A stretch of DNA of 7,266 nucleotides from Acidobacteriaceae bacterium. Lineage in GTDB: Bacteria; Acidobacteriota; Terriglobia; Terriglobales; Acidobacteriaceae. Within the stretch, counting starts at the first letter, position 1. Each line of letters opens with the position of its first letter. The DNA lies in contig JASIJX010000176.1 of the NCBI GenBank assembly GCA_030049955.1, positions 1 to 7,266 of the forward strand, read 5' to 3'. Shown piece after piece: positions 1 through 7,266 of this stretch. The notes under the pieces are model-generated. The model was given only the letters and a program-made list of their open reading frames with translations, searched no databases and was not told the DNA's origin. The position numbers and the translations under genes were made by a program.

Positions 1-457
1 TGGTTCCGTCGTCTTCGGTCACCTCGGGAATCGCGCTCGACGGAATGTCCTGATACCGCGGCTCGGTCATCTTGAGCGCCGCGGGCAGGTTGGCCCAGAG
101 TTGGAAGCCATGCATGCGGCCGCGCTCGTCGCCCTTCGGCATCTCCTGGTGCAGAATGCCGCTTCCGGCCGTCATCCACTGCACGTCGCCGGCAGTCATG
201 CGGCCCTTGTTGCCCAGCGAATCGCCATGCGCTACTTCGCCTGCAAGCACATAGGTGATGGTCTCGATGCCGCGATGCGGATGCCACGGAAATCCGGCCA
301 GATAGTCGGCTGGATTCTCATTACGGAAATCGTCCAGCAACAGGAACGGATCGAACTCCTTGGTTTTGCCGAATCCGAAGGCCCGCTGGAGCTTTACGCC
401 AGCACCCTCGATCGTCGGTTTGGTTTGAAGAATTTCTTTGACCGCACGCAGTGACAT
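1..457 (-). CDS. Pirin family protein, N-terminal part (gene runs off the left edge)
   Basis: Reading the minus strand from ATG 457-455 gives 152 residues that stay open to the window edge. The sequence is a clear pirin N-terminal cupin: MSLRAVKEIL, then FDPFLLLDDF at about 35-44, FPWHPHRGIE at about 56-65, and ILHQEMPKGDERG at about 101-113. The four expected metal ligands are present: His59 and His61 in the HPHRG motif, His103, and Glu105 in the HQE motif. They match the Fe(II)-binding His/His/His/Glu set known for pirins. Bacterial pirins are cytoplasmic, often stress-induced, and some act as quercetin dioxygenases; the substrate here cannot be told. The start is well supported by AAGGAGG (466-472) eight bases before the ATG. 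The full protein is usually about 230-300 aa, so the C-terminal cupin is missing only because of the window edge. It lies 97 bp downstream of the SDR-like gene on the same strand and may have its own promoter. Confidence 0.93.
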   Translation of the reverse strand, partial: MSLRAVKEILQTKPTIEGAGVKLQRAFGFGKTKEFDPFLLLDDFRNENPADYLAGFPWHPHRGIETITYVLAGEVAHGDSLGNKGRMTAGDVQWMTAGSGILHQEMPKGDERGRMHGFQLWANLPAALKMTEPRYQDIPSSAIPEVTEDDGT

Positions 458-465
458 GGCGGCGA

Positions 466-508
466 CCTCCTTTGCTGATAGGAGCGTACAAGAATTAGAT
501 GTTGCAAC
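466..508 (-). promoter_or_regulatory. Pirin leader: strong Shine-Dalgarno and upstream GTTGCAAC palindrome
   Basis: The minus strand carries AAGGAGG (466-472) at ideal distance from the pirin ATG. The perfect 8-bp palindrome GTTGCAAC lies at 501-508, 43 bp upstream of the start. Its TTGCAA could serve as a -35-like element (weak TCCTAT match 18 bp further on) or as a repressor half-site. The same 8-mer occurs before the YceI gene at 2149-2156. The role in control is inference. Confidence 0.4.
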
Positions 509-556
509 AGGTAACTGGATTCAGTCCATCCCCAGACGCGTCCGGTTCGGGGAAAG

Positions 557-1555
557 CTACGCCGTTTTCACGGATCGCTGATACCACTCGAGCGTGTTCT
601 TGAGACCATCCGCATAGGATGTCTTTCGCACGTTCCCAAGGAGGCGATCGAGAGCGCTGTCATCCATGATGACCGGTGTTGTTTGCAGATAGTGCATTTC
701 CACCAGCTCCCGGACAAACGGGTTGAACAGCCCTCCGATGCGAAGCATCGTTTTGCCTATCACCCGCAGCTTTGGCGGCCGCCCGGCGAGGCGAAAAACA
801 TGCTCCGCGATCTGTCGCTGTGTCATCGTCCCTGACCCGGCGAAGTTCCACCAGGTCCCGTAAGCCTCCGGGCAAGCCGCAAGGTCGAGTACCACTGGTC
901 CCACATCAGGGACATAGGTGAACTCGTGCGGAGTGTCGATTGGGCCGACCATGGTTGCCGTCTTGCCGGTCGCCGCAGCCTGGAACAAAGAATGGAGAAA
1001 ACTCGCTTCGACCCGCGGCCCGTAGAAGTCCGGCAGTCGGAGAATGGTTCCCTTGATCCGGCCCTCGGCGTGCGCTTTCAGCAAGCGATCTTCCTGCTCC
1101 CTGCGCATCCGGCCCTTGAAGGTTTGAGGATTGCGAGAGTGTTGTTCCGTAACCTTTGCCGATTGCGGCACACCGTACGGGTAAACCGTACCGATCAGTA
1201 CGAATCGCTGCACGCCGGCGTCAATCGCGCCCTGCAGTGTTCTTTCAATCAACACTGGGTGCAACTGAAACTGGTCATACGGCACGCCGACCAGGTACAC
1301 GAGCGTGTCGATTCCTTGCGCCGCTGCACGGATCGATGCCGGATCGTCCGGATTCCAGAGGACGAGTTCGGCAAGGGGATCGGAACCGAACTCGGGTTCC
1401 AGCCGCTGCTGGTGCCGTCCAACGACGCGGTAAGACTTTCCACGGCGGCGAAGTTCCACGGCGATACTTCTACCGATTGCTCCCCCGGCTCCAAAGAGTG
1501 CAATCTGTCCCACAGTGGGTTCGATTTTACGCTGCCTTAATAAACTGGGCGTCAA
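557..1555 (-). CDS. Atypical NAD(P)-binding SDR / NAD-dependent epimerase-dehydratase-like protein
   Basis: This 332-residue protein has an N-terminal Rossmann fold with the glycine motif GAGGAIG (residues 22-28). A VVGR end of beta-strand 2 (about 44-47) suggests NADP rather than NAD. Other extended-SDR landmarks are LVYLVGVP (85-92), RFVLIGTVYPYG with Thr123 at the Ser/Thr active-site position, and ILRLPDFYGPR (171-181). The expected YxxxK appears degraded: the matching stretch reads TFKGRMRREQE (145-155), with Phe146 where Tyr and Met150 where Lys would fall. It may therefore bind nucleotide without classical SDR catalysis; the substrate is unknown. The start is uncertain. The TTG at 1555 overlaps the YceI gene by 29 bases, with AGGAAG 12 bases upstream. 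A GTG at 1513 would begin MGQIALFGAG, 13 bases after the YceI stop, but lacks a good ribosome site. The short junction suggests cotranscription with YceI. The TAG stop is at 557-559. Confidence 0.85.
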   Translation of the reverse strand: MTPSLLRQRKIEPTVGQIALFGAGGAIGRSIAVELRRRGKSYRVVGRHQQRLEPEFGSDPLAELVLWNPDDPASIRAAAQGIDTLVYLVGVPYDQFQLHPVLIERTLQGAIDAGVQRFVLIGTVYPYGVPQSAKVTEQHSRNPQTFKGRMRREQEDRLLKAHAEGRIKGTILRLPDFYGPRVEASFLHSLFQAAATGKTATMVGPIDTPHEFTYVPDVGPVVLDLAACPEAYGTWWNFAGSGTMTQRQIAEHVFRLAGRPPKLRVIGKTMLRIGGLFNPFVRELVEMHYLQTTPVIMDDSALDRLLGNVRKTSYADGLKNTLEWYQRSVKTA

Positions 1556-2099
1556 TCGTAAGCGTCACTTCCTCGCCCACCAGCACTCCACCGGTTTCAA
1601 GCTGGGAATTCCAGGTAAGGCCGAAGTCCTTGCGGTTGATCTTGGCCGTCGCGGAAACGCCAACACGCAAGTTGCCCCAGGGATCCTTATTCGGGGTCCC
1701 GAGTTCTTCCACAGCAAAGGTAACCGGCTTTGTCACGCCATGAATGGTCAGGTTGCCTTTGACCTCAAATTCCTCTCCCCCAGTGCGCTTCACGGCAGTG
1801 GATTCGAAGGTCAGCATGGGGTACTTTTCAGCCTCGAAGAAATCGGCGCTCTTGAGATGCCCGTCGCGCTGTGGTTCACCAGTGTTGAGCGTGTTGAGAT
1901 CTGCCGACGCTGTGACTTTGGAACGGGTGAAATCGGCCTCGTCAAGGGTCAATACGCCCTTAAGGCCGCGGATGCTGCCCTTCACATGGGCGATCATCAT
2001 GTGCTTCACCTTGAACTCAGCCGCCGAATGGGCGGGGTCGATGTTCCAGGTGCTTACGGTGGAGGAACTGGTAGTGGAAACGGTTGTTGAAGTGCTCAT
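1527..2099 (-). CDS. YceI family lipocalin-like protein, cytoplasmic form
   Basis: This 190-residue protein matches the YceI family throughout: STWNIDPAHSAAEFKVKHMM (16-35), the HVKGSIRGLKGVLTLD region (38-53), HLKSADFFEAEKYPMLTFES (81-100), GNLTIHGVTKPVTF (115-128) and INRKDFGLTW (154-163). YceI proteins form a lipocalin-like barrel that binds isoprenoid-type lipids, and many are exported. Here no signal peptide precedes the fold. Instead residues 2-17 are almost only Ser, Thr and Val, so a cytoplasmic location is likely. The ATG at 2099 is preferred because AGGAG lies 11 bases upstream. A nearer ATG at 2107 is out of frame, and an in-frame extension to 2195 looks non-coding. Length is normal for the family. 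It is the first gene of a minus-strand set with the SDR-like and pirin genes, and is probably transcribed from the 2100-2217 spacer. Confidence 0.93.
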   Translation of the reverse strand: MSTSTTVSTTSSSTVSTWNIDPAHSAAEFKVKHMMIAHVKGSIRGLKGVLTLDEADFTRSKVTASADLNTLNTGEPQRDGHLKSADFFEAEKYPMLTFESTAVKRTGGEEFEVKGNLTIHGVTKPVTFAVEELGTPNKDPWGNLRVGVSATAKINRKDFGLTWNSQLETGGVLVGEEVTLTIDAQFIKAA

Positions 2100-2148
2100 G
2101 GGTGCATGATCTCCTCTTGTCGTATTTGGATGCGGGAAGAAACTGGTC

Positions 2149-2165
2149 GTTGCAACAAATATTTG
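2149..2165 (-). promoter_or_regulatory. Candidate operator/promoter element upstream of the YceI gene
   Basis: Two abutting palindromes lie here: GTTGCAAC at 2149-2156 and CAAATATTTG at 2156-2165, sharing one base. They sit 50-66 bp before the YceI ATG, in the only AT-rich patch of the spacer. GTTGCAAC is identical to the site before the pirin gene. In both leaders TTGCAAC is followed, a few bases on, by TTCTT and then TCC on the coding strand. No convincing -10 hexamer was found at standard spacing, so whether this is an operator, a -35 box or an activator site is open. Confidence 0.4.
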
Positions 2166-2191
2166 ACCGGAAGGACAGTCGGTTTTCGCGC

Positions 2192-2215
2192 CCACGTAGG
2201 TCAGCGCCTACGTGG
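2192..2215 (-). terminator. Perfect 9-bp hairpin just after the TPR/barrel gene; terminator-like, no U-tract
   Basis: CCACGTAGG (2192-2200) and CCTACGTGG (2207-2215) are exact reverse complements around a 6-base loop. The stem begins two bases beyond the TAA stop (2218-2220) of the upstream minus-strand gene. On that strand it is followed by GCGCGAAAACC, with no run of T, so it is not a classical intrinsic terminator. It may protect the 3' end of the mRNA, weaken readthrough into the YceI promoter, or bind a dimeric protein. Confidence 0.45.
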
Positions 2216-2217
2216 CC

Positions 2218-3936
2218 TTACTCCAGCAGGTTGACATACCAGGCATTATTGCCGGTCCGCAGGTCTCTACCGTAGGAGAAGACCAGTCCTTGATCGAAGA
2301 CGCGGAGCTTGAGCTGGGCGCCGGTATCGAAGAGCCATTGGTGAGAACCGAGCGCCGTGCCGGGATCGGCGATTTTCCCGATGTCGAGAAGCGGCCCGAG
2401 CTGCAGTTTCACAAGGCCATTGGCGTACAGGTTTTTGTCTAGCTCCCAATTCTCAAGGAAAAATTCGCGGCCGAGCGGAGCGCTGCCCTTGCGGCCGTCC
2501 CGCGTGCCAATGTGAGCGTGCATGGGCAGATCGTTGTCGCGCTCAAGGCCAAGGATATACAGCTCATCGAAAGGCGCCTGGCCGAATATGCGGCCAGCAT
2601 GGAACTGCTGCGCGGTTTCGTAGTCGTCGCCTTGCGGACGCGGAAACCAATGCCACGCAACCGAGCCCGAAAGTTTTTCGAAGCTCCCAATCCCCGTCAC
2701 AATCCCGGTCGTTGATGAACTCGACCAGAGGCGTGCAGCCTGCGAAGCTGCGCCGGCCGCGAGCGTGAAGCGATGCTCTGGGATACGCCAAAGCGTGGCG
2801 TCAAGCTGCGCACGCTGCTTGAGCTCGTAGCCGCCTGCGAGCATTTGCGGCGTGAGCACACTGCCGGCCGCGACACTGCGGAAGTCGCGATGCGAGAGCT
2901 CTGCGCCGGCGCGCCAACCAATGCGGCCGCTCGAGTACGAGGTAAGATCGAATCCTCCGCGTTCCGTACGCATGTTGAAGCTCGCCAGCACTGGCGCCGG
3001 ACCGGCAAATCCATTCCGCACTGCCCAGTTCTCATTGCGAAGATCGGTCGAGAACTGCCAGCGGTACTTCGCGCCGTGCTCCCACGGTCCGGACGTCTCG
3101 GCGAAGATGCGGCGCTTCTGTGTGTCCCAGCGAAACATGGAATCAAAGTTGATGCCTTGGCGTCGGAGGTTCCAAAAGCCCGGCTCAATCTCCTGGAACG
3201 GCAATCCCCGGAAGACCAGAAAAAGATTCTCCCAGCCAGCGCCCCCGAGGCCGTTTAGCTCGCGCGCGCGAAAGTTGGCATCGAAACTGCCTCCGGGGCG
3301 CGCGTCGAGATCGAGCTGCCAGGCGGGAAAGATGCCCAGGCCGCGTAGGCGCGATTGCGTGGCGAGGTACTGCGGCTCCAGCAGCGTGCTGGCCGGCGCG
3401 AAGGCGAACGCGTGATCGAGAAGCGCAGGTGAAATGCGCGGGATGGGGTCCTCGTTAATCTCGTCGATCTGCGGCTTGCCGATACGGTTCCAGTATTTGA
3501 GCGCGGCCTCGAGATTGCCGTCGAGGAAATAGAGCGTTGCAAGAAAGTTGTTGGCGTAAGCGTCGTTCGGGGCCAGGCGCAAAGCTGTGCGCAGGCGCTG
3601 CTCGGCCAGCGCATTGTGTTTCTGCTTGAAGGCGATGCCGGCGAGCTCGATCGGGAAGCGCGCATCGCGCGGAGCGAGTTGGCTGCCTTGCCGGAGTGCG
3701 CGTTCGGCTTCAGGCCAGCGGCCGAGGCGCGCGAGCGCCATACCGTAGTCGAAGTCCTGGCCGGCCGAGCGCGAATGAACGGGCGCGAGATTGCGGACGA
3801 TCTCATCCCAGTGCGGCGCGTCAGCGGCATTTTCTGATTGCGGTGTAGAGGAAGGCGTCAATGCCTGTGCGCCGGCAACGACGCACCTGGCGAACATCGA
3901 AATGACAATCAGCCACCTCGCCAGATCGCGCAGCAT
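2218..3936 (-). CDS. Exported TPR protein fused to a POTRA-like segment and Omp85-like outer-membrane barrel
   Basis: The protein is 572 residues. Residues 1-24 form a signal peptide (ARWLIVISMFARCVVAGAQA). About 60-155 contain TPR-type helices: FDYGMALARLGRWPEAERALRQG, then IAFKQKHNALAEQRLRTALRLAPND, then FLATLYFLDGNLEAALKYW. About 184-225 (LLEPQYLATQSRLRGLGIFP onward) resemble a POTRA repeat. The rest is alternating, aromatic-rich strand sequence. It includes LYILGLERDNDLPMHAHIG (459-477), FFLENWELDKNLY (492-504), and a closing QLKLRVFDQGLVFSYGRDLR, reminiscent of bacterial surface-antigen (Omp85/TamA) barrels. This suggests an outer-membrane protein with a periplasmic TPR scaffold. The ATG at 3936 is chosen over a GTG at 4014 because it puts the signal peptide first. 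It also gives a TGATG one-base overlap with the peptidase gene, so translation is probably coupled. The TPR call is firm; the POTRA and Omp85 calls are inference from pattern. A plain TPR-plus-porin fusion is the alternative. Confidence 0.82.
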   Translation of the reverse strand: MLRDLARWLIVISMFARCVVAGAQALTPSSTPQSENAADAPHWDEIVRNLAPVHSRSAGQDFDYGMALARLGRWPEAERALRQGSQLAPRDARFPIELAGIAFKQKHNALAEQRLRTALRLAPNDAYANNFLATLYFLDGNLEAALKYWNRIGKPQIDEINEDPIPRISPALLDHAFAFAPASTLLEPQYLATQSRLRGLGIFPAWQLDLDARPGGSFDANFRARELNGLGGAGWENLFLVFRGLPFQEIEPGFWNLRRQGINFDSMFRWDTQKRRIFAETSGPWEHGAKYRWQFSTDLRNENWAVRNGFAGPAPVLASFNMRTERGGFDLTSYSSGRIGWRAGAELSHRDFRSVAAGSVLTPQMLAGGYELKQRAQLDATLWRIPEHRFTLAAGAASQAARLWSSSSTTGIVTGIGSFEKLSGSVAWHWFPRPQGDDYETAQQFHAGRIFGQAPFDELYILGLERDNDLPMHAHIGTRDGRKGSAPLGREFFLENWELDKNLYANGLVKLQLGPLLDIGKIADPGTALGSHQWLFDTGAQLKLRVFDQGLVFSYGRDLRTGNNAWYVNLLE

Positions 3937-4496
3937 CAATGCAAGCCCGCCGGCGATCCTGTCAGGTTCGCCATCGGCACAGCGAGCAGCGTCCAGTTTC
4001 CGGTGACCTTCCACTCGCGCTCGAACTCCTCGCGTGCCTCTTTAAGCAGCTTGCGCTGCGCGGGATCGTTGAGCAGCACGACCTGCTCGGCATCGTCGAT
4101 GCCGGCGACAACCACATAGTGCAGCGAACGGCCGCCCGCAGGCTCGAGTGCGGCAATGACCGGGCGGCCTTTGGCAAGCTGATGCTCAAGATCGGACCAC
4201 TGGCCGGCAAAGGCGAAGGCGCGATAACTGTGCTGCTGAAAGTAGCGCAGCATATCGGCGGCGCGCACCCCATCGCGCCCTGGTGTAAGCGTGCGCAGCA
4301 CATCGGCTGCGCCACCGCTCGCTGGCGCGCGCTGCTGCTTCTGCCAATATTCCATGATCATGGCGATGCTGGCCGGGCCGCAGCCATTCTTCTGCTGCGC
4401 GACGAACGGCACGTCCAGCCAGATGTTGAGAGGAGCCGCGGCAAGCGCGACGCTACTGATCGCCAGCAGAACACCGGCTATCACTCCGCCGCGCAC
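3936..4496 (-). CDS. C39-family cysteine peptidase, secreted, stand-alone domain
   Basis: The protein is 186 residues with an N-terminal signal peptide (about 1-20, VIAGVLLAISSVALAA). The mature part opens with LNIWLDVPFVAQQKNGCGPASIAMIMEYW (23-51), the C39 hallmark. Cys39 is the nucleophile and Gln34 or Gln35 the likely oxyanion residue. His126 in SLHYVVVAGID and Asp144 in VLLNDPAQ complete the triad. It is close to the PA2778-type of C39 protein rather than to bacteriocin transporters: there is no ABC or membrane domain, and no double-glycine precursor gene nearby. A periplasmic site of action is expected. The start is GTG at 4496, with GAGAGGG seven bases upstream, 12 bases after the stop of the preceding gene. 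The TGA shares one base with the next ATG. PA2778 homologues, as I recall them, carry TPRs in the same chain; here the TPRs lie in the next gene. Confidence 0.9.
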   Translation of the reverse strand: MRGGVIAGVLLAISSVALAAAPLNIWLDVPFVAQQKNGCGPASIAMIMEYWQKQQRAPASGGAADVLRTLTPGRDGVRAADMLRYFQQHSYRAFAFAGQWSDLEHQLAKGRPVIAALEPAGGRSLHYVVVAGIDDAEQVVLLNDPAQRKLLKEAREEFEREWKVTGNWTLLAVPMANLTGSPAGLH

Positions 4497-4508
4497 TGCC
4501 GGACCCTC

Positions 4509-4919
4509 TCAGCGCACCGCTACGATGATGAGGATGATCACGGCGACGGCAACGAGAATGATCAGCAGGTCGTGATCGCTCATATTGCCGGCGGCGAAGT
4601 CGTTCTGCGCTTTGTTGGCGCGTGCGGCCAGTTGCGCCAGTTCCTGATCGCTGAGCCCGACGACGGCATTTTGCACCTCGACCGGGTTCATGTGCGCCTG
4701 CTCAAGCGCTTTCTCCGCTTTGGGCGAGGAAAGGAAACCGCGTAGCGTGTCGATGTTCTGCTGGCGAGCGTGCGTGGCGTCCTGTGCGGCCTTATTCAGA
4801 TCGCCAGGGCTGACCACGTGGTTCGCATTCTGCGCAGCCATGGGTTGGGGAACGGCGAATGCCGCAGCGAGAACAGCAGTCGAAAGAAAGCCGACCGGCT
4901 GCCGGAAATGAAACCGCAT
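4509..4919 (-). CDS. PA2779-like small exported, C-terminally anchored protein
   Basis: The 136-residue product has a signal peptide (about 1-29, FLSTAVLAAAFAVPQPMAAQ). A soluble helical middle includes NIDTLRGFLSSPKAEKALEQ (55-74) and VQNAVVGLSDQELAQLAARA (82-101). A single hydrophobic helix follows (LLIILVAVAVIILIIVAV, 118-135), ending in one Arg. This layout matches the PA2779 family: a short domain with an 'L..peV...L..lGL...E...LA' pattern, then a C-terminal membrane helix. The gene-order pairing with a C39 peptidase is the same as for PA2778/PA2779. Biochemical function is unknown to me; a membrane partner, chaperone or substrate of the peptidase is inference. It is the first gene of a three-gene operon. 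The ATG at 4919 has GGGAGG nine bases upstream and a promoter 46-72 bp upstream. Codon use and composition resemble the neighbours. Confidence 0.82.
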   Translation of the reverse strand: MRFHFRQPVGFLSTAVLAAAFAVPQPMAAQNANHVVSPGDLNKAAQDATHARQQNIDTLRGFLSSPKAEKALEQAHMNPVEVQNAVVGLSDQELAQLAARANKAQNDFAAGNMSDHDLLIILVAVAVIILIIVAVR

Positions 4920-4964
4920 GTGTCTCTACCTCCCGGGGGTTGGAAGTTTAGGCAACTCTCTGCG

Positions 4965-4991
4965 ATTATAACGTGGCTGCATGAGCAGCAA
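4965..4991 (-). promoter_or_regulatory. Promoter of the PA2779-like / C39 / TPR-barrel operon
   Basis: On the minus strand a perfect TATAAT lies at 4965-4970. TTGCTG at 4986-4991 is a weak -35 match (TTG only) at a short 15-bp spacing. Transcription would start near 4958, giving a leader of about 40 bases that carries the GGGAGG site before the ATG at 4919. The weak -35 may mean an activator or another sigma factor is involved. The spacer is shared with the divergent oxygenase gene. Confidence 0.6.
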
Positions 4992-5042
4992 GATGCGCCT
5001 GCAGAACCTTTCTGACTAACCTGGCTGCGACTCGCGCGCTCT

Positions 5043-5048
5043 AATAAT
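5043..5048 (+). promoter_or_regulatory. Candidate -10 box of a leaderless transcript for the oxygenase gene
   Basis: AATAAT (five of six matches to TATAAT) ends six bases before the ATG at 5055. That is the distance at which transcription would begin on the start codon itself. No Shine-Dalgarno-like sequence is present in the 30 bases upstream, which is GC-rich (GGCTGCGACTCGCGCGC). No clear -35 was found. Confidence 0.35.
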
Positions 5049-5054
5049 GTGCAT

Positions 5055-6041
5055 ATGACAGTGTTGCCAAGCGGCCGAGCAGGCGGACAGGTTTCTTCGG
5101 CGGATTTCGAAAGCGTCCTCGCCGGTGTCGCTCGCCGCACGCACGATCCGCGCGCCGGCATCTTCGGGCCGGGATCGACGAGCTGGCGGGTGAACCGCGA
5201 GTCGGCTGTTTTCCTTTGCGCCGGACGAGCGGCGCTGCTGCAGCTTGCCCATCCGTGGGTAGCTGCGGCACTCGAACAGCACTCGAGCGTGATGATGCGG
5301 CCGATTGAGCGCTTTCACAACACTTTCCGGATTGTTTACACGATGGTCTTCGGCACGCTGGAGCAGGCGCTGGCCGCGGCGCGGCATCTGTATAAACTGC
5401 ACACGACCATTCAGGGCGAATTGCCGGAGCAGATTGCAGGATGGCCGCGCGGCGCACGCTACCAGGCCAATGAGATTGCGGCGCTGCGCTGGGTCTTCTC
5501 CACGCTTGTCGAGAGTGCTGTCATCGCGTGGGAGTGCGCATTGGGGCCAATGCCGCACGACGAGCGCGACCGGTTCTACACCGAAAGCAGATTGTTGGCC
5601 GGTCTGTTTGGGCTGGCGGATGCGTCGCTTCCGCAAAGCTGGGAAGAATTCGCTGCCTATAACCAGGCGATGCACGGCTCGGATGAGCTGGGTGTAAGCG
5701 TGTACGCGCGCACAATGGCGCATTACCTGCTTTCCGGCGGCAATTCCTGGGTGTACATTCCGTGCTGGTACCGTGCGCTGACCGCGGCGTGGCTGCCGCC
5801 GCGGTTTCAGCAGGAGTTTGCGCTGGAGTTTACTGAAGTAGACCGCCGCGCCGCCGATGCTGCCTGCCGAAGAATTCCGCGGATCTACCGCAGGCTGCCA
5901 GCGGCGCTGCGCTTCGTGGGCCCGTGGCATCAGGCGCAGGCGCGGCTGGCTGGCCGTCGCGCCGGTCCGCTTGCCCGGCTCAGCAATCGCTTCTGGATCG
6001 GCCAGACGCTGCTGCCATTCGCGGATGAAACGCCGCGTTGA
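5055..6041 (+). CDS. Oxygenase MpaB / DUF2236 family protein
   Basis: The protein is 328 residues. It carries the DUF2236 signature across its length: WRVNRESAVFLCAGRAALLQ and LAHPWVAAALEQHS (44-77, with His66-Pro67), RFHNTFRIVYTMVFGTLEQA (86-105), HLYKLHTTIQGELPEQ (111-126), a WVFSTLVESAV helix (146-156), and FYTESRLLAGLFG with SLPQSWEEFAAYNQAM (174-206). Known relatives include fungal MpaB and the latex-clearing protein Lcp, which are heme-dependent oxygenases cleaving isoprenoid chains. The substrate here is unknown and I cannot assign the heme ligand from the sequence. Many relatives have His in the WVHATL motif where this protein has Phe148. No signal peptide is seen, so it is probably cytoplasmic. 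ATG 5055 is preferred to GTG 5049; neither has a ribosome site, which points to leaderless translation. It is divergent from the protease operon. Confidence 0.9.
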   Translation: MTVLPSGRAGGQVSSADFESVLAGVARRTHDPRAGIFGPGSTSWRVNRESAVFLCAGRAALLQLAHPWVAAALEQHSSVMMRPIERFHNTFRIVYTMVFGTLEQALAAARHLYKLHTTIQGELPEQIAGWPRGARYQANEIAALRWVFSTLVESAVIAWECALGPMPHDERDRFYTESRLLAGLFGLADASLPQSWEEFAAYNQAMHGSDELGVSVYARTMAHYLLSGGNSWVYIPCWYRALTAAWLPPRFQQEFALEFTEVDRRAADAACRRIPRIYRRLPAALRFVGPWHQAQARLAGRRAGPLARLSNRFWIGQTLLPFADETPR

Positions 6042-6145
6042 TCATGTTCCTCGCACGTTTCTATTTCCCTTTCCGCCGCCCTGCGCGCACAATAGGCATA
6101 CACGTATTGCCACTTCTGGACGCTCGTGACACCGGTAATTGCTGC

Positions 6146-6177
6146 GGCCAGGAGAGCAAATGGCCAGGAGAGCAAAT
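6146..6177 (+). repeat. Perfect 16-bp tandem duplication in the leader of the 6189 gene
   Basis: GGCCAGGAGAGCAAAT occurs at 6146-6161 and again, directly abutting, at 6162-6177. Each copy contains the Shine-Dalgarno-like AGGAG. The junction creates ATG at 6160-6162, opening a six-codon ORF (Met-Ala-Arg-Arg-Ala-Asn) that stops at TAG 6178-6180. The length is not a multiple of three, so the duplication would shift the frame of any coding sequence across it. This supports the region being a leader. Confidence 0.9.
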
Positions 6178-6188
6178 TAGGTTTTTCA

Positions 6189-6557
6189 ATGGATCCTCGC
6201 GACGCCGTCGACCCCGAACAGATTGAATCTCTCAACCGCGCCTTCGCCGATCAGTTACTGGCGTGCCTGGACGAATGCGCGCGCGGCCGGCACGGGCTGT
6301 TCTCGGAGTTCATCGGCGACGAGAGCCAAGAGAGCTTGTGGCGTGAGGCCGCGCTACTGCGGCATCTGGCCGTGGCGCTCCAGGGAGTGCTCGCGCGCCA
6401 GGGTGAGCGCAACGCACTGTGCGACGAGTTCCTCGAGCTGTGCAGCATCCACGGAGAAAGCCACCCCGGGGAGCGCAAGCTGGCGCGGACGTTCCTCGAA
6501 CGGATTGAGCGGGGCGAAGTGGGCGCACCTGTGGAGGAAGAGCGCAGGCGCTGGTAG
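6189..6557 (+). CDS. Conserved-looking hypothetical protein, 122 aa
   Basis: I do not recognise the family. The protein is soluble, acidic to neutral and predicted mostly helical. It runs MDPRDAVDPEQIESLNRAFA, then LLACLDECARGRHGLFSEFI (23-42), LWREAALLRHLAVALQGVLA (49-68), a central LCDEFLELCSIHGESHPGER stretch (75-94), and a charged Arg/Glu-rich C-terminus ending in Trp. There is no signal peptide or membrane segment. Cysteines at 26, 30, 76 and 83 include a CxxxC. The ATG at 6189 has only a weak TTAGG seven bases upstream. An in-frame GTG at 6126 would read through the tandem repeat and has no ribosome site. It lies 147 bp downstream of the oxygenase gene on the same strand and ends just before a strong terminator. 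Third-position GC and a continuous frame support real coding. Confidence 0.75.
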   Translation: MDPRDAVDPEQIESLNRAFADQLLACLDECARGRHGLFSEFIGDESQESLWREAALLRHLAVALQGVLARQGERNALCDEFLELCSIHGESHPGERKLARTFLERIERGEVGAPVEEERRRW

Positions 6558-6569
6558 GTTCAGAGCAAC

Positions 6570-6618
6570 GCCGCACCTGTGCTCCGTGGACTCGCAGCGC
6601 AGGTGCGGCTGTCTTTTT
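6570..6618 (+). terminator. Intrinsic (Rho-independent) terminator
   Basis: GCCGCACCTG (6570-6579) pairs perfectly with CAGGTGCGGC (6600-6609) across a 20-base loop. TGTCTTTTT (6610-6618) follows directly. It begins 12 bases after the stop of the 122-aa gene and ends the plus-strand transcription unit. There is no matching T-run for the opposite strand. Confidence 0.88.
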
Positions 6619-6625
6619 ATGCGGA

Positions 6626-6675
6626 GCTTGCCTGGGAATGAATGCGATTCGCGTGAAGTCGCCTCTCAGGCAAGC
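6626..6675. repeat. Inverted repeat with long loop between the convergent gene ends
   Basis: GCTTGCCTG (6626-6634) and CAGGCAAGC (6667-6675) are exact 9-base reverse complements separated by 32 bases. It sits 6 bases beyond the stop of the minus-strand barrel gene. It lacks a T-run on either strand, so it could be a weak 3'-end structure for the barrel mRNA rather than a classical terminator. Confidence 0.4.
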
Positions 6676-6681
6676 CGGTCT

Positions 6682-7266
6682 TCAGAAACGAAAGCCAATC
6701 GTAACCGGGATGAGCTCCGTGGTGCCAAGGCCATTCGTCGCCGTAATCGGCGGAGTATGGATGAAAGTGTAGCGCGCCTCGGCGAATACCATGCTCTTGC
6801 CTTCGCCGTACATTCCTCCGAAGCGATGGTAGAGGCCGACTCCTCCGTTGCCGCCCCATTGATTGGACGTAAAGGAAGCGACGGTCACATTTTCGTAGTA
6901 GTAGCCGTAAAAAGGAGAAAAGACTTCCTGGGGCGAGCTGAAGTTCGTTGACTTGTGGTACCAGCCCCAGCCGCCGACGAGGTAAGCGCCGTTTGACCAG
7001 TGCGGAGTCAGGTCGATAACGGGAGAGCCTGTAATCGAATTGAAGTGTGCGTTACCACCCGTGATCCCACAATCACCGCAACCGCTATTTGCTGCCGCAA
7101 TAAACGCGCCGGGCAGCTTGTTACTCATGAATTGATACTCGAGCAGCGCGGAGACGCGCCTGGAGAAACGGACGCCCGCACCGAGGGTGAAGTTGCCGCC
7201 CCAAGTGATGAAGGGACGGTCATTGCCGAGGGGAGCACTGAAGCCGCCGCCCGCCTCCCAGGTAAG
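6682..7266 (-). CDS. Small outer-membrane beta-barrel protein, C-terminal part (N-terminus beyond the right edge)
   Basis: The frame is open from base 7266 to the TGA at 6682-6684, giving 194 visible residues. They begin LTWEAGGGFSAPLGNDRPFI and run through alternating amphipathic strands rich in Gly, Tyr, Trp and Phe. Examples are NFTLGAGVRFSRRVSALLEYQF, GAYLVGGWGWYHKSTNF, WGGNGGVGLYHRFGG and MVFAEARYTFIH. The chain ends VTIGFRF, a typical terminal strand with C-terminal Phe that the BAM machinery recognises. This is the small barrel type (about 200-250 aa) common in Acidobacteriota. A loop contains CGDC (CxxC), probably surface-exposed. An ATG at 7128 exists, but coding clearly continues upstream in frame, so it is not the start. 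The signal peptide and promoter lie outside the window. Function beyond an outer-membrane barrel cannot be assigned. Confidence 0.88.
   Translation of the reverse strand, partial: LTWEAGGGFSAPLGNDRPFITWGGNFTLGAGVRFSRRVSALLEYQFMSNKLPGAFIAAANSGCGDCGITGGNAHFNSITGSPVIDLTPHWSNGAYLVGGWGWYHKSTNFSSPQEVFSPFYGYYYENVTVASFTSNQWGGNGGVGLYHRFGGMYGEGKSMVFAEARYTFIHTPPITATNGLGTTELIPVTIGFRF

Follow-up and report, generated by a model that had tools for sequence, protein, structure and literature searches.

Three genes on the minus strand (2218–4919) of a 7,266-nucleotide stretch of DNA from an Acidobacteriaceae bacterium (contig JASIJX010000176.1 of assembly GCA_030049955.1, positions 1 to 7,266; hereafter the window) encode a PA2779-family protein, an exported C39 peptidase and a large protein with tetratricopeptide repeats (TPR) and a predicted outer membrane barrel. 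We are highly confident that the set contains the PA2778 protein split in two, together with a barrel of the Omp85 type. It is probable from sequence comparison that the C39 peptidase cuts the Gly-containing tail of the PA2779-family protein. As a whole the operon may constitute a dedicated cell-envelope processing unit, an explanation whose chances we rate as about even. The genes and the protein features discussed below are as follows.

4509–4919, minus strand: gene 1, PA2779-family protein, 136 aa, ATG start; matches NF033919 at 42.9 bits
4587–4595, minus strand: Ala109-Ala110-Gly111, the proposed cut site, immediately ahead of the membrane helix
4512–4586, minus strand: 25-residue C-terminal tail, a membrane helix whose last residue is Arg, read from the sequence
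3936–4496, minus strand: gene 2, exported C39 peptidase, 186 aa, GTG start; matches PF13529 and PF03412
2218–3936, minus strand: gene 3, TPR-POTRA-Omp85 protein, 572 aa, ATG start at 3936
3481–3810, minus strand: TPR helices, residues 43–152, from profile and model
3262–3471, minus strand: POTRA-like beta-alpha-alpha-beta-beta domain, residues 156–225, from the model only
2224–3180, minus strand: Omp85-type beta-barrel, residues 253–571, with five strands after the L6-like loop, from the model
2467–2580, minus strand: L6-like loop, with MHAH in the window protein and an [LM]R[AG]H-type motif in relatives

Evidence for a split PA2778 protein with an Omp85-type barrel

The open reading frames (ORFs) lie where the earlier note on this DNA had placed them, with 12 bp between genes 1 and 2 (4497–4508) and a TGATG overlap joining genes 2 and 3 (3938–3934). 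The longest ORF for gene 3 is 2218–4014 (598 aa, GTG start); because of the TGATG overlap, and because a database copy of the same TPR/barrel protein (P0001) is 572 aa long, its start was set at the ATG at 3936. Gene 1 encodes a signal peptide, a helical domain, the Ala-Ala-Gly sequence and a C-terminal membrane helix. Its assignment as PA2779-like was borne out by a family profile search, in which the NF033919 score of 42.9 bits exceeded the curated cut-off of 40; none of 14 control genomes matched this profile.

The gene 2 product scored over the cut-off for PF03412 (47.7 bits, 1.7e-12) and PF13529 (61.5 bits, 1.8e-16), as expected of the exported C39 peptidase previously proposed, and contains Cys39, His126 and Asp144 (in NDPA), with Gln34/35 ahead of the Cys. 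The C39 family profile also matches the peptidase domains of PCAT and ComA. Against the PA2778 equivalog NF033920 the window C39 scored 63.5 bits, below the cut-off of 150, and aligned with profile positions 4–150 only, while the TPR region of gene 3 matched the second half of the same model weakly (E 0.033). A single polypeptide carries both C39 and TPR in PA2778, whereas the window divides them between two proteins, of which the TPR protein additionally carries POTRA and an Omp85 barrel. The single-polypeptide form was found in L102 and in others. C39, TPR and Omp85 are in fact fused in a single ORF in 12 loci (L101, L102, L145, L151, L153, L156, L158 and L257–L261), and in L102 the PA2778 model aligns across both C39 and TPR (positions 2–247 of 255), in keeping with the PA2778/PA2779 parallel drawn in the earlier note. 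Since these fusions exist and the PA2778 layout is C39 plus TPR, the window set corresponds to PA2778 split in two plus an Omp85 barrel. Thus, the TPR that had been assigned to the large protein is present there, but it belongs with C39.

In plasmid pairs from Azoarcus and Eleftheria, PA2778 is a C39-TPR protein with no adjoining barrel gene in the annotation. The annotated Azoarcus PA2778 coding sequence (6058–6804) starts late; a longer frame (L099:5845–6801) holds an LAAC lipobox-like motif and the start of C39.

The barrel itself was identified from a structure model. A first AF2 model, built from homologues of at least 61% identity (pLDDT 64.9), pointed to the same fold family at lower scores and was replaced by one from a more diverse alignment (pLDDT 89.9), which shows TPR followed by a single POTRA-like domain and a barrel of the Omp85 kind, as in BamA or FhaC. 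Alignment of this model to full-length BamA, TamA and FhaC (VIA-align) starts at model residues ~146–156. Secondary structure assignment (DSSP) gave 15 barrel strands of at least 5 residues from residue 253, for the 16 expected of an Omp85 barrel. The Omp85 L6 motif is of the (V/I/L)RG(F/Y) type; relatives of the window protein have LR[AG]H, some LRGH, and the window protein itself MHAH. The Pfam Omp85 family PF01103 did not match the window protein, and among eight relatives scanned it matched the fused proteins L259 (over the cut-off) and L158 (below it) and the other six not at all. A sequence search of the PDB with the barrel profile gave 117 matches, the best 60 of which are nearly all TPR or designed TPR proteins at profile positions 50–168; because they fall in the TPR region, this search was uninformative on the barrel. 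A fused protein has 856 relatives, and the source names readable among the best 120 never mention Omp85; they are “C39 family peptidase”, “predicted double-glycine peptidase”, “Peptidase_C39 like family” or “hypothetical protein”; therefore, the barrel appears to be unannotated. The outer membrane barrel of the earlier note is thus present in the model, but as an Omp85-superfamily protein with TPR and a POTRA-like domain rather than a generic pore.

The Omp85 fold of the model disfavours a generic pore, and likewise a porin that exports polysaccharide and combines TPR with a barrel (BcsC, PgaA, NfrA), which we regard as very improbable: the order of TPR and barrel and weak TPR-region matches to the PgaA and BcsC models (BcsC ranking 43 with the first, poor model) fit it, but the barrel is Omp85-like with a POTRA-like domain, no glycosyltransferase family was found among the nine window ORFs scanned, and the barrels of BcsC, PgaA and NfrA are not among the listed structure matches of the better model, an absence that is not itself an exclusion.

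Conservation of gene order and co-occurrence

Gene order was examined in 70 loci taken from one scan with the barrel alignment, all with Acidobacteria-group titles; the named relatives of the window proteins come from Terracidiphilus and other Acidobacteriota, in line with the origin of the window. The cultured isolate Edaphobacter aggregans (L016) is among those with the three-gene form. All three genes occur in the same order on one strand in 62 of them (including L054, with a 110-bp gap), so that gene order, which the earlier note proposed to check, is conserved; seven of the remaining eight are cut by contig ends. In the last, L041, C39 and the barrel are together and PA2779, with the same Ala-Ala-Gly, is unlinked elsewhere in the genome. 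The three-gene set is not a chance arrangement.

We also surveyed 396 Acidobacteriota genomes with thresholds of our own choosing (E ≤1e-6 for PA2779, E ≤1e-15 for C39), with no more than 9 or 10 candidates scored in each genome. PA2779 was present in 39 genomes, C39 in 52 and both in 36 (Fisher p 4.8e-35, uncorrected for kinship). PA2779 without C39 was found in three genomes (G013, G072 and G301), in one of which (G072) the C39 was recovered under fuller scoring, and C39 without PA2779 in 16. The earlier note had named rare co-occurrence, a large protein lacking a barrel and the lack of a PA2779 match as outcomes that would speak against the module; the genes co-occur widely, the model has a barrel and the 136-aa protein matches the profile.

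Reading of the 52 C39 genomes gave 17 with C39 and an adjacent TPR-Omp85 gene, 13 with the fused form (in G393 in two frames), 14 with C39-TPR lacking a barrel, 4 with C39 alone and 4 with apparently other C39 proteins. The last four (G010, G038, G051 and G076, E ~1e-16) were set aside, having neither a Gly-tail neighbour under the filter used nor a TPR or barrel match. A Gly-tail protein is present in all 48 genomes of the first four groups: PA2779 in 36, NF033919 matches in 3, a short form in 1 (G297) and a protein with a GGG tail in 8. In G019, G047 and G060, PA2779 was detected by NF033919 and is not beside C39.

Beyond Acidobacteriota, C39 was found in eight plasmid records (six from Deinococcus, one each from Eleftheria and Azoarcus), in none of which a search found the barrel; searches with the Eleftheria proteins gave no further records. 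The six Deinococcus plasmids (H2, H4–H8) hold distant C39 relatives of 26–31% identity, two of which are annotated as LysM proteins.

The Gly tail as the probable target of the C39 peptidase

The earlier note suggested a search of linked loci for small precursors with GG-type sites; the 136-aa protein, with Ala-Ala-Gly directly before its anchor, is itself a more promising candidate substrate. Ala110 and Gly111 are invariant among 29 aligned close homologues. In the pooled loci, 121 ORFs match PA2779 and 120 of them end in a membrane helix, with [AG]G within 14 residues of that helix in 116. The four exceptions are L103, which has no such motif, L165 and L168, in which Ala-Gly lies slightly farther off, and L162, which has Thr-Gly. 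Counted per genome, [AG]G is present in all but two of 42 representatives (40), G072 having Thr-Gly and G013 no such motif; this count includes the short form of G297 and omits G301, where the match is not in the tail. The G301 protein, from a genome without C39, is a shortened PA2779 match near a contig end and lacks the membrane helix. Among the best representatives, Gly-Gly occurs in 12 of 13 fused genomes and Ala-Gly in all 17 three-gene genomes, while the three-gene loci L040 and L056 carry Gly-Gly.

Three natural comparisons favour C39 and PA2779 as enzyme and substrate: the loss in G013, the GGG-tail proteins and the pattern of copy number. In G013 (L103) a PA2779-like protein without the Gly motif lies beside a barrel-like gene, and the only C39 matches to this genome are distant ones (1.7e-8 in a frame of 1803 residues and 4.0e-8 in one of 833). 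The same search covered 11 further genomes, giving a C39 at E ≤1.5e-23 in 10 and none in G301. All eight C39-TPR genomes without a PA2779 match encode, directly after C39, an exported protein of 74–79 aa in which DVITASDAGGG precedes a membrane helix (10 proteins in 8 genomes, L241–L248, e.g., L246:3919–4155). Only the Gly tail of these proteins resembles PA2779, the remaining domain being unlike it, and the single one scanned gave no NCBIfam match. A profile of the tail only, run against 12,176 ORFs, listed eight non-PA2779 matches, seven of which are GGG-tail proteins (E 0.011–7.5), and missed 3 of the 10 GGG-tail proteins; homology between the two kinds of tail is therefore no more than suggested. 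Similarly, in L160 a PA2779 match reduced mainly to its Gly-Gly tail (6361–6672, minus strand) adjoins a stand-alone C39.

As to copy number, 28 of the 36 co-occurrence genomes have one PA2779, which adjoins C39 in 26. Five (G032, G058, G330, G306 and G229) have two to four dispersed copies, one C39 each and no adjacency, and three have tandem copies adjoining C39. Dispersed copies served by a single C39 fit substrates better than regulators. The same adjacency rule is given by Haft and Varghese (PMC3237569) for GlyGly-CTERM proteins and rhombosortase.

Two other readings of the PA2779 sequence were considered. The LSDxEL segment resembles a C39 leader but was not called a canonical double-Gly one, as its spacing to Gly differs. 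The hydrophobic tail could itself be the product, as in a microcin, and a role as a diversifying toxin is disfavoured because the tail is strongly conserved. The PA2779 profile also matched a lysozyme entry in the PDB (1.6e-6 overall, with no single stretch passing, and weaker rows below it); this match was not used.

Proposed mechanism and alternatives

In the proposed mechanism, the PA2779-like protein would be exported by its signal peptide and remain anchored in the inner membrane through its C-terminal helix, as its sequence predicts. The fusions suggest that the periplasmic C39 is held at the outer membrane by the TPR-POTRA part of the Omp85 protein. There it would cut the PA2779-like protein at or near Ala-Ala-Gly, freeing a helical domain of ~80 residues. 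TPR/POTRA might then bind this domain and deliver it to the Omp85 barrel, or keep it beneath the barrel, to be translocated or displayed at the surface. The steps differ in strength: cleavage of the Gly tail of PA2779-like and GGG-tail proteins is the probable part, and passage of the freed domain through the barrel is a tentative proposal. More speculative, and on balance unlikely, is a C-terminal sorting system in which an outer membrane-tethered C39 would recognise and cut a portable tail (Gly-Gly or Ala-Gly plus helix) on unrelated small exported proteins and hand the product to a dedicated TPR-POTRA-Omp85 translocator.

Several observations weigh against the proposed mechanism. No barrel lies beside C39 in 18 of the 52 C39 genomes (the 14 with C39-TPR and the 4 with C39 alone) or in the two plasmid pairs; therefore, the core reaction does not depend on Omp85. 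The sites recorded for C39 cleavage (PMC5557850) are Gly-Gly or Gly-Ala, and Ala-Gly would be an unusual, non-classical one. LSDxEL does not stand at the spacing of a C39 leader. The catalytic Asp and the Gln ahead of Cys vary between subfamilies: aligned C39-TPR and proteobacterial proteins do not have the Asp at the NDPA position, and no such Gln was seen in L105, L107 and L146. The loss of the motif concerns one genome, G013, which keeps the PA2779-like protein beside the barrel-like gene. The motif counts are not independent because the sequences are related, and the split between Gly-Gly and Ala-Gly by architecture could reflect co-evolution or merely common ancestry. Finally, the Ala-Gly or Gly-Gly next to the membrane helix might serve as a hinge; [AG]G precedes the C-terminal helix in 30 of 99 other ORFs (18 of 87 once 12 recognised tail proteins are removed).

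The alternative that survives best, although we consider it unlikely, is that the Omp85 protein is merely an outer membrane anchor or scaffold: C39 would cut the PA2779-like protein, the product would stay periplasmic and nothing would cross the barrel. A lipobox-like Cys is present in all eight barrel-less C39-TPR proteins beside PA2779 (L099, L100, L105, L106, L107, L146, L154 and L159; five called by regular expression, L105, L106 and L107 read by eye) and in none of 12 fused proteins (omitting L262, whose barrel is in another frame), as though one anchor replaced the other. The exchange has exceptions: the lipobox expression also matches 14 of 85 C39-only rows, of which 10 adjoin a barrel gene (two of these being one and the same locus), and neither barrel nor lipobox is present in the eight C39-TPR proteins from genomes with GGG tails (L241–L248). 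Because of these two groups, exchange of a lipid anchor for a barrel is at best a tendency, and a complete, conserved POTRA and barrel seem costly for anchoring alone. PlpD is a warning by analogy, since its enzyme domain on an Omp85 protein is reported to be periplasmic (PMC11116518), and the same may hold here.

Somewhat further down the scale of likelihood is the reading of Ala-Gly or Gly-Gly as a flexible hinge, with PA2779 acting in the membrane as a partner or regulator that brings in C39, while other exported proteins would be the true substrates. The background frequency of the motif agrees with this, as does retention of the helical domain across the aligned PA2779 set. The natural comparisons point the other way: beside C39, the GGG-tail proteins and the short protein of L160 retain nothing but the Gly-tail part, dispersed PA2779 copies with one C39 suit substrates better, and in G013 motif and C39 are absent together.

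A fibre or amyloid export system like Fap, in which a periplasmic C39 (FapD) is needed for secretion via an outer membrane barrel (FapF), is quite improbable. The logic of an exported C39 plus an outer membrane barrel is shared, FapD needs its active-site Cys for secretion (PMC5557850), and the FapD model weakly matches the C39 of L160 (3e-7, 29.9 bits, with a cut-off of 330). The window barrel, however, is Omp85-like and not the trimeric 12-strand FapF, no Asn/Gln-rich repeat subunit was seen in the three genes, and the FapD-type model NF058616 did not match the window C39 at E 0.1.

Relation to known systems

Among the closest known systems is the pair of PA2778 (NF033920) and PA2779 (NF033919), with the partner over its cut-off and the window C39 and TPR both aligning to the PA2778 model. 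In the portions of the literature available to our search, no function was assigned to either; we found a transposon insertion between PA2779 and the adjoining regulator gene, a PA2779-family gene tabulated in a search for strong constitutive promoters of P. stutzeri, and, for PA2778, an altered start codon. The rhizosphere diazotroph P. stutzeri DSM4166 has the PA2779-family gene PSTAA_2481 (PMC10155442).

The window barrel is of the BamA/FhaC type by model and has one POTRA-like domain, as befits the Omp85 superfamily (BamA, TamA, FhaC/CdiB, PlpD), but TPR precede that single domain and C39 is alongside or fused. Like two-partner secretion (TPS; FhaC/CdiB), the operon encodes an Omp85 barrel with a dedicated partner; here, in contrast, the partner is short, helical and membrane-anchored, a protease is included, and no TPS domain or large exoprotein was recognised in the window. 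The Borrelia BBJ25 cluster, a proposed export system, similarly has an Omp85-family gene adjoining genes for TPR proteins, but these are separate proteins accompanied by an ABC transporter and a LolA-like protein, and the text at hand (PMC13078400) does not mention C39. Fap offers a precedent for an exported C39 needed together with a barrel (PMC5557850), but uses another barrel class and another C39 subfamily, and its amyloid-repeat subunit was not seen here.

GlyGly-CTERM proteins and rhombosortase share the Gly motif followed by a C-terminal helix, and likewise have adjacent genes in dedicated pairs and unlinked multi-copy targets (PMC3237569). Here the enzyme is a soluble C39 cysteine peptidase and not a rhomboid, of which none was found among the nine window ORFs scanned; there are one to four targets per genome, and the basic cluster is cut to one residue or absent.

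Literature searches, which left most subscription papers and all preprints outside their reach, paired Omp85 with C39 only in work on other subjects, to judge by titles and the opening of abstracts, and gave nothing for CTERM with “C39 family peptidase” or for Omp85, TPR and patatin together. The literature does join the terms Omp85, POTRA and tetratricopeptide, so TPR-Omp85 proteins may already have been described and we make no claim to the contrary.

Promoter and neighbouring genes

One further feature lies upstream of the operon.

4965–4970, minus strand: TATAAT, possible −10 element 46 nt upstream, read from the sequence

The hexamer reported in the earlier note is present (4970–4965), but scanning for promoters gave no sigma-70-like site (0, with 0.5 expected) and no −35 element for it, and this detail is therefore weak. 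Rfam and tRNA scans gave no matches. The divergent neighbour (5049–6041, plus strand) is an MPAB/latex-clearing-type oxygenase (PF09995, 5e-42), a 143-aa ORF (6126–6557, plus strand) has no Pfam match, and a partial ORF (6682–7266, minus strand) resembles a small outer membrane barrel (PF13505, below cut-off).

Implications

With the processing unit proposed here, the PA2778 and PA2779 families gain a testable function as enzyme and substrate, with a predicted site, an outer membrane partner and natural cases for comparison. It would describe an Omp85 type that combines TPR with a peptidase, and give C39 peptidases another job outside ABC exporters, besides that of FapD. If the sorting system were true, it would be a C39 counterpart of what rhombosortase is for rhomboids, with its own outer membrane export route.

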